This document shows positions 33,101 to 36,100 of a stretch of 64,000 nt of DNA, one piece after another. Source of the stretch: Amphiura filiformis. Its lineage: Eukaryota > Echinodermata > Ophiuroidea > Amphilepidida > Amphiuridae. Position numbers and translations under genes: made by a program. Position 1 is the first letter of the stretch. Each line of letters opens with the position of its first letter. The notes under the pieces were generated by a model. The model was not told the origin of the DNA, ran no database searches, and saw nothing but the letters and a program-made list of their open reading frames with translations. Where the stretch lies: contig NC_092628.1 of the NCBI RefSeq assembly GCF_039555335.1, forward strand, positions 96,297,782 to 96,361,781, read 5' to 3'.

Positions 33101-36100
33101 TAGCATCTGTCTTAGATCATTTGGCCTGCTCGAAGGCCCAGTCCGGATAACCGCACTTCCATAAAGTTCCTTCGACGTGGTCTTTCACTACCGCCTTTGG
33201 CTTTGGTCGCTTATGATAGATTCAGCGCGGTAGTGAAGGGTCCGTATAACGCCAAGTTTGTGGACGAGTGTATGGTGCGACCCAAACTGTAGGTGATGAT
33301 CAGTGTGGGTCGGCTTGCGATAAATTACTGTTGTGAGCTTACGTTCGTTGTTAATCTGGACATGGCAGTCAAGGAACGCGAGTTTGTTGCCCGTGCACTT
33401 CTCTTGTGTGAATTTGATATTGTCGCTGATGCTGTTAATATATGTGAAGAAATTGTCCTGTTCATGTCTGTTAATAACAACAAAGTTGTCGTCTACGTAG
33501 CGTAGACAAAGTTGTGGTATGTCTCGAGTGTATGCTGTTCAAACCATTCAATAACCAAGTTGGCAACTATATAATTGTCTATAAATCATTGTTGGAAAAA
33601 TAGGTCGCAGCTGTTGTGCTTCAATAATATGGTCAATACTCCAAGTTTTTTCTTGAACAAATTCATCAGGACTGTTCATAGTAGAATTGTTAGTTGTGAT
33701 TTCTTACGACTAGTCCAATAAAATATCCACTTACTTGCAGACGTTTCGGAAACTGTCAGTTTCCTTTATCGATGCTATTGATGTAATGACGATCTGTATA
33801 CAGCTGATGTTGACTGCTGCTTAGCAACTGAGTTGCCAGTAGATTTCTTGTCAGTTATCAGATCGTCAAAAACGTGACTCAAGTTGTATTGCCCCCCATC
33901 AGAAAGCGGGGCAACACCATGAACAGAGACGAGGGGCAATACAACTTGAGTCACGTTTTTGACGATCTGATAACTGACAAGAAATCAACTGGCAACTCAG
34001 TTGCTAAGCAGCAGTCAACATCAGCTGTATACAGATCGTCATTACATCAATAGCATCGATAAAGGAAACTGACAGTTTCCGAAACGTCTGCAAGTAAGTG
34101 GATATTTTATTGGACTAGTCGTAAGAAATCACAACTAACAACTCCAAGTTTTCTTATTTGGCAAGTTGTTTTCAGCGTTCACATGCATGGAATTCATCAA
34201 TAATCATTATTCCTTGCCGGCTGACACGTGACCAGTCGCCGATTACGATCAATACAGGAGAATCTTTGCAGTTGCCAGATGAAGTCCAATGAGATTGGAT
34301 GAAAATGTGCAAAATCATTCGATTCCAGTATTTTCTTCATAATTCACCTTCTGAAGATGATAATTATAATGTCGATGATGATTATGATATGACGATGATT
34401 ATGACGCAGCGACGACGGCGACAATAATGATTTGATGATGATCAGCATGATCAGGGATGCTAAAAGTTTTGTTACACACAGGTCTGAAACCGCTGGCATA
34501 CTCGTTGCGTCCGTTATGTTCTTCGCTAGCTTGGTAGTGACAGGTTCTCTAGTGGGCAAGAATCACTTCATAACAAATTCATATGGGACACTCTTTGGAC
34601 TTCAACCTTCGTAAGTATAGAATCACTTCATAACAAATTCATATGGGACCCTCTTCGGACTTCAACCTTCGTAAGTATAGAATCACTTCATAACAAATTC
34701 ATATGGGACCCTCTTCGGACTTCAACCTTCGTAAGTATAGAATCACTTCATAACAAATTCATATGGGACCCTCTTCGGACTTCAACCTTCGTAAGTATAG
34801 AATCACTTCATAACAAATTCATATGGGACACTCTTTGGACTTCAACCTTCGTAAGTATAGAATCACTTCATAACAAATTCATATGGGACACTCTTTGGAC
34901 TTCAACCTTCGTAAGTATAGAATCACTTCATAACAAATTCATATGGGACCCTCTTCGGACTTCAACCTTCGTAAGTATAGAATCACTTCATAACAAATTC
35001 ATATGGGACCCTCTTCGGACTTCAACCTTCGTAAGTATAGAATCACTTCATAACAAATTCATATGGGACACTCTTCGGACTTCAACCTTCGTAAGTATAG
35101 AATCACTTCATAACAAATTCATATGGGACCCTCTTCGGACTTCAACCTTCGTAAGTATAGAATCACTTCATAACAAATTCATATGGGACACTCTTCGGAC
35201 TTCAACCTTCGTAAGTATAGAATCACTTCATAACAAATTCATATGGGACACTCTTCGGACTTCAACCTTCGTAAGTATAGAATAACTTCATAACAAATTC
35301 ATATGGGACCCTCTTCGGACTTCAACCTTCGTAAGTATAGAATCACTTCATAACAAATTCATATGGGACACTCTTCGGACTTCAACCTTCGTAAGTATAG
35401 AATCACTTCATAACAAATTCATATGGGACCCTCTTCGGACTTCAACCTTCGTAAGTATAGAATCACTTCATAACAAATTCATATGGGACACTCTTCGGAC
35501 TTCAACCTTCGTAAGTATAGAATCACTTCATAACAAATTCATATGGGACACTTTCGGACTTCAACCTTCGTAAGTATAGAATCACTTCATAACAAATTCA
35601 TATGGGACACTCTTCGGACTTCAACCTTCGTAAGTATAGAATCACTTCATAACAAATTCATATGGGACACTCTTCGGACTTCAACCTTCGTAAGTATAGA
35701 ATCACTTCATAACAAATTCATATGGGACACTCTTCGGACTTCAACCTTCGTAAGTATAGAATCACTTCATAACAAATTCATATGGGACCATCTTCGGACT
35801 TCAACCTTCGTAAGTATAGATTCACTTCATAACAAATTCATATGGGACCCTCTTCGGACTTCAACCTTCGTAAGTATAGCTTTCCATTTCGTTATAGTTT
35901 TATACCCCTATAGTCATTTTCGAACCGGGCCGGCCAGTAATATCGAAGGCTTAGAACTAGAACTGTCCATATCCAAAATATAGGACACTTTTGGCACATA
36001 AATCATTATACAAGTTATTCATCAATGCCTTATATCTTCTGCTGATGGCAAGTAGTTCATCAATGAGCTATCTACTGCCTATAATAGCAAGTAGTTCATC

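Follow-up and report, generated by a model that had tools for sequence, protein, structure and literature searches.

Twenty-two identical copies of one 5' splice site in a minisatellite inside an NRF-6-like acyltransferase gene of the brittle star Amphiura filiformis

In the brittle star Amphiura filiformis, the 5' splice site of exon 11 of an acyltransferase gene (gene A), which codes for a membrane protein, lies in a tandem array of 22 units, every one of which carries the same donor, and only the first of these donors joins to exon 12 without leaving a stop codon in the message. We consider the array to be probably a young minisatellite that happened to straddle this splice site, with donor 1 in use and the spare donors leaving in the intron. 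The window studied is the whole stretch of 64,000 nucleotides that was analysed, and all positions given below refer to it.

The window contains two animal genes in tandem, A and B, both on the + strand. Their exons and introns were deduced from phase, splice consensus and alignment of the two paralogues; the chained boundaries are AG/GT and the phases agree (Table 1). Exons 2-15 of gene A match PF20146 (NRF; 46.2 bits, cut-off 27) and PF01757 (Acyl_transf_3; 79.2 bits, cut-off 31), and its best relatives among the matches listed are A. filiformis proteins annotated as "nose resistant to fluoxetine protein 6-like" and "O-acyltransferase like". The host family is therefore NRF-6-like / acyltransferase 3 ("nose resistant to fluoxetine 6-like"). 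An earlier note on this DNA had placed the array inside a host gene, and this holds: the frame of gene A is open from ATG to stop and the junction at donor 1 looks real.

Table 1. Genes A and B and their repeated splice sites in the window
Feature	Position	Strand	Remarks
Gene A, 688 aa, 15 coding exons from the ATG to a stop codon that starts at 40806	21191..40808	+	NRF + Acyl_transf_3
Exon 11 of gene A (coding; 129 nt; phase 2 on either side)	34482..34610	+	last 50 nt = exonic part of unit 1
Donor 1, GTAAGTATAG	34611..34620	+	sole in-frame, stop-free join to exon 12 among the 22
Donors 2-22 (GT at 34671, 34731 ... 35870)	34671..35879	+	TAA at donor 1 stays in the message
Gene A exon 12	36737..36884	+	acceptor with which the array donors would pair
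Gene A exon 14 (from 40023) and decayed upstream repeat copy (39884-39988)	39884..40147	+	no acceptor in the decayed copy
Gene B (paralogue in tandem), chained exons 2-15	50048..63440	+	stop just before the end
Gene B exon-14 acceptor, four copies, 147-bp period	61331..61904	+	exon starts 61353, 61498, 61645, 61792

The array occupies 34561-35879 of the + strand and consists of 22 head-to-tail units, 21 of 60 bp and one, unit 17, of 59 bp. Tandem Repeats Finder calls it at 34559-35879 (period 60, 22.0 copies, 98% matches), and both this call and direct reading of the sequence bear out the 22 tandem donor copies reported by the earlier note. Each unit spans the exon-intron border, being made of the last 50 bases of exon 11 and 10 intron bases with the donor GTAAGTATAG, and the start of the array matches this register; the 60-bp unit of 50 plus 10 bases that the note described stands for 21 units but not for unit 17, the exonic part of which is 49 bases. 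On the + strand of the window GTAAGTATAG occurs 22 times, always inside the array, at a spacing of 60 bp throughout except for a single step of 59. The context from -10 to +10 is identical in 22/22 donors, in agreement with the claim that every unit carries the same donor; this donor looks functional, and the exon that ends at donor 1 chains in phase. There are seven distinct sequences among the 22 units (pairwise difference 1.73% on average and 5% at most), arranged in the order T C C C T T C C a C a a C a C a d a a a C C. Type T is confined to units 1, 5 and 6, type a is absent before unit 9, and private changes are found in units 13, 17, 21 and 22. This non-random order is the pattern of stepwise duplication and speaks against an assembly loop. 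Folding energies of 2, 4 and 6 units were -8.0, -21.8 and -31.3 kcal/mol, values obtained without a shuffled control and from which no structure is claimed.

When donor 1 is joined to exon 12 the frame is open and without stop. By contrast, all seven later donors that were computed (2, 3, 4, 16, 17, 18 and 22) give the same TAA and, since this TAA is located at donor 1, the other 14 later donors must meet it too, which confirms the claim of the earlier note that only the first donor leaves the protein open. With exon 11 ending in phase 2, reading through any GTAA donor gives NNG TAA; the stop is automatic and needs no design. If a later donor is used, the message keeps TC-G TAA and codes for 467 aa (as calculated from donor 2), and exon 11 grows to between 189 and 1388 nt; the stop then lies 56 nt before the junction for donor 2, rising to 1255 nt for donor 22, with more junctions downstream. 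Later-donor use thus brings in the premature stop by which regulated unproductive splicing is recognised, as a potential only. Skipping of exon 11 (129 nt) keeps the frame and gives 645 aa. We also considered the array as coding sequence and rejected this, as the frame that is open over 251 aa (34530-35285) differs from the phase of exon 10. The frame-2 translation of the array (34551-35279) found no protein sharing three words with it among proteins of 0.55 to 1.75 times the query length, a result that says little on splicing.

Intron 10 measures 2571 bp, and intron 11 measures 2126 bp from donor 1 or 867 bp from donor 22; across the two genes, 24 of 26 introns exceed 250 bp (intron 1 of gene A being left out of the count). 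As the introns that flank exon 11 are long, this exon is probably defined across itself. The 22 identical donors would bind U1 about equally and the acceptor would pair with the nearest of them, donor 1, which is the one that keeps the frame, while donors 2-22 would leave within the spliced-out intron; occasional use of a later donor would yield the truncated product, and such a message would probably be degraded. On this reasoning donor 1 would be the likelier choice in most transcripts, and donors 2-22 are probably bystanders. In human cells, minigenes spliced under exon definition preferred whichever donor lay closest, across the exon, to the acceptor upstream of it (Carranza et al. 2022, PMC9225289; here and below, as given in the part of that paper covered): in five minigenes where introns of 365 nt flanked an exon with two identical CAG/guaagu donors, splicing went exclusively to the upstream donor, and smaller exons were preferred. 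The same source reports that, as long as differences in strength were left in, about 60% of all human events favoured the downstream donor, and that weakening the identical donors caused skipping, preferentially of the larger exons. Applied to gene A, the minigene results would predict the opposite of a U1 decoy, the upstream donor being the productive one (PMC9225289). The rule of exon definition was derived in human cells with two donors, whereas the array has 22 donors in a brittle star. In strength donor 1 ranks 14th of 26 (13 of the 25 other donors of genes A and B score higher), with TTC and not CAG on its exon side; it is only average, and leakage or skipping of exon 11 is plausible.

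Splicing inside the array, with 50-nt mini-exons running from an array AG to the next donor, was examined and rejected: as acceptors, the array AGs score -1.9 or -1.73, under all 28 real acceptors (lowest 1.9). The combination of a donor and a usable acceptor in each unit, by which tandem intron gain is recognised, is absent here, and the GT-AG stretch inside the unit is 10 bases long.

The array would have been founded by tandem duplication of a 60-bp stretch spanning the end of exon 11, after which slippage or unequal exchange would have raised the number of units to 22. Both ends of the duplication share AG (left CA-AG-AATC, right AT-AG-CTTT), and these two bases are a plausible microhomology for the founding step. 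The heterozygosity of A. filiformis is 3.22% according to the part of its genome paper covered here (PMC11310086); as the mean difference between units, 1.73%, is below this value, the units either coalesce recently or are homogenised, as the earlier note had proposed. That the array varies between individuals is a fair prediction. As for its position, 2 of 18 minisatellite arrays cover a splice site, over the 54 sites of genes A and B, the 18 being all those in the window with a period of at least 25 bp after Tandem Repeats Finder rows were merged by hand. Random placement gave at least 2 overlaps in 76% of 20,000 trials; the observed overlap matches chance, so the position of the array at a splice site needs no selection, and selection for arrays at splice sites was set aside. 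A mobile-element origin of the unit is not needed, the unit being the exon end itself. A phage or prokaryote origin was likewise rejected, the junction 35-mer having 0 exact matches in viral_contigs and genome_contigs, as expected for an animal gene. Donor-1 preference, neutrality, message decay and variation between individuals are what we infer from these data.

Several other repeats and mobile-element remains are present in the window. Intron 11 contains, between the array and exon 12, more decayed minisatellite stretches with a 36-bp unit (36011-36449). A palindromic element lies in intron 10 (32500-34281), with 217-bp arms that are 98% complementary (33684-33900 and 33928-34144) and outer inverted repeats of 84 and 28 bp; it ends about 200 bp before exon 11, and its outer arm may extend beyond 32500, where the search started. 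By eye, it includes pieces of a reverse-transcriptase-like ORF on the minus strand, and the piece that was searched gave no Pfam match. Upstream of gene A, a non-LTR-like retroelement with a 583-aa ORF matching RVT_1 is found on the minus strand at 5289-8516, and the region 9871-12556, with a THAP domain (9871-10128) and a DDE_Tnp_4 piece (12290-12553), is probably the remains of a DNA transposon.

Gene B has a single donor and no array at its exon 11 (59253-59384). No exon 1 was found for gene B: the sole candidate from a motif search on the + strand belongs to gene A. At exon 14 of gene B it is the acceptor that is repeated, the mirror case of the donor array of gene A; repeated acceptors 2-4 are in frame and open, and a 2-bp difference puts acceptor 1 out of frame. 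A decayed relic of this repeat stands upstream of exon 14 in gene A. We also observed an exact 46-bp duplication, not a multiple of 3, at the end of the last coding exon of gene B (63373-63465), which may set the C terminus of this protein.

Among the annotated NRF-6-like proteins of A. filiformis, P0003 combines both paralogues. Numbered on gene A residues without exon 1, it is 98.3% identical to gene A over residues 50-344 (288/293) and 97.6% identical to gene B over residues 345-596 (247/253). At the sites where A and B differ, 57/58 match A up to residue 310 and 50/52 match B from 345 to 545; nine later sites (6 matching A, 3 matching neither) were left out, the end of P0003 being repeated exon-14 sequence for which the alignment is not meaningful. 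The switch from A to B falls between 27456 and 27951, where exon 9 opens with 66 bases that are the same in both genes (the regions concerned are 27387-28037 in A and 56880-58145 in B). Judged from this mosaic, P0003 looks like the product of a recombinant gene, formed by crossover or conversion, in which exon 11 of gene B replaces that of gene A, and this gene would accordingly be one that lacks the array; it may be an allele of the gene A locus or another copy in the cluster. The annotated P0003 protein contains pieces of the repeated exon-14 segment, as in gene B. The loop encoded by exons 11-12 of gene A, 27-36 residues long, is present in P0001-P0004 (P0005 ends earlier), and no repeat was seen in that loop in these four proteins; an array that is spliced out would not show in the protein.

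Several other readings of the array were weighed. In one, close to the U1 decoy and tunable switch that the earlier note suggested, it is a leaky set of poison donors: U1 and the acceptor of exon 12 would be contested by the 21 spare donors, a longer array would lower the output of gene A, and array length would tune it. The identical -10 to +10 context of the 22 donors, the pairing of donor 1 with 8 bases of the U1 5' end and the stop met by 7/7 of the later donors computed are all consistent with this, as is the frame-keeping skip of exon 11, given that weakened donors in larger exons led to skipping in the minigenes (PMC9225289, in the part covered). From those same minigenes, however, one expects the upstream of identical donors to be used when flanking introns are long, and smaller exons to be preferred where the later donors lengthen exon 11, and we regard leaky poison donors as unlikely. 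It is quite improbable that the array is a splicing rheostat set by DNA length, in which each unit would add an obligatorily unproductive donor, unequal exchange in this highly polymorphic species would create alleles of graded output, and the neighbouring gene would present the mirror case as an in-frame acceptor array.

Loss of gene A, with little expression and a dispensable 3' half, could explain why no full-length match to it was found among the best 120 of 538 matches, where the top five A. filiformis proteins are 73-88% identical over 56-100% of the query. It would also agree with the search made with the C-terminal half, which matched 34 proteins (in a search covering only proteins of about 160-509 aa), 33 of them at 25-45% identity and one at 83% identity over 24% of the query, and with P0003, which has gene B sequence in place of this half. 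Missing annotation is nevertheless weak evidence, because the array itself can upset gene prediction, and in gene A all 15 exons remain open, their phases agree and none of the splice sites is broken. Between genes A and B, dN/dS is 0.36 over 655 codons; taken by segment it is 0.36 (exons 11-13), 0.35 (exons 14-15), 0.64 (exon 11 alone) and as high as 1.25 (exon 3). The overall ratio and those of exons 11-13 and 14-15 argue against loss, but the comparison spans mostly the time before the array and so is no proof that gene A still works; altogether we find loss rather improbable. Inflation in the assembly of a shorter true array, or of one unit, is very improbable: near-identical units are easily miscounted, but the seven unit types, their order and the private changes speak for real units, and the array is only 1.3 kb long, within reach of the long nanopore reads from which the published A. 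filiformis assembly was built (PMC11310086, in the part covered), if the window comes from that assembly. A young minisatellite straddling the splice site thus remains our preferred reading.

The closest known system is human IFI6 (6-16, G1P3), in which a minisatellite gives multiple splice donors (Turri, Cuin and Porter 1995); there, a tandem repeat reportedly supplies several donors for one acceptor, as in the structure of the array described here. The alternative transcripts of IFI6 are reported to encode different isoforms, whereas the extra donors of gene A all give a stop. Gene A differs further in its 60-bp unit within a phase-2 exon, and the gene, the phylum and the origin are other ones. 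The IFI6 repeat unit is reportedly short and in frame. In-frame isoforms are a trait of IFI6 that is absent from the gene A array and is not necessary for the kind; by structure, the array fits the known kind of a minisatellite that multiplies a 5' splice site. Identical donors also compete within one exon in the minigenes of Carranza et al. (PMC9225289, with Reed and Maniatis cited there; part covered), where two engineered donors were placed in human cells, as against 22 natural donors at 60-bp steps. The part covered of a study of earthworm metallothionein (PMC12783039) describes intronic minisatellites and no repeated donor, and an intronic VNTR of ABCA7 (PMC5954066, likewise in part) is a tandem repeat linked to splicing of its host gene. 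In the literature searched (mostly open-access, with few subscription papers, and mostly by wider subject) no description of the gene A array was found; a query directed at this locus gave one hit, an unrelated paper on a locust. We know of no claim that the unit of the ABCA7 VNTR contains the donor itself.

We therefore see the array as a neat natural test of splice-site choice and not as a new kind of switch. It offers a natural isogenic series, with 22 identical donors at 60-bp steps in one exon and a single-donor paralogue adjacent, in which the reading frame of gene A separates productive from unproductive donor choices. RNA reads from this animal could show whether an invertebrate spliceosome measures the shortest distance to a donor over the exon or over the intron, and whether long donor arrays reduce expression.
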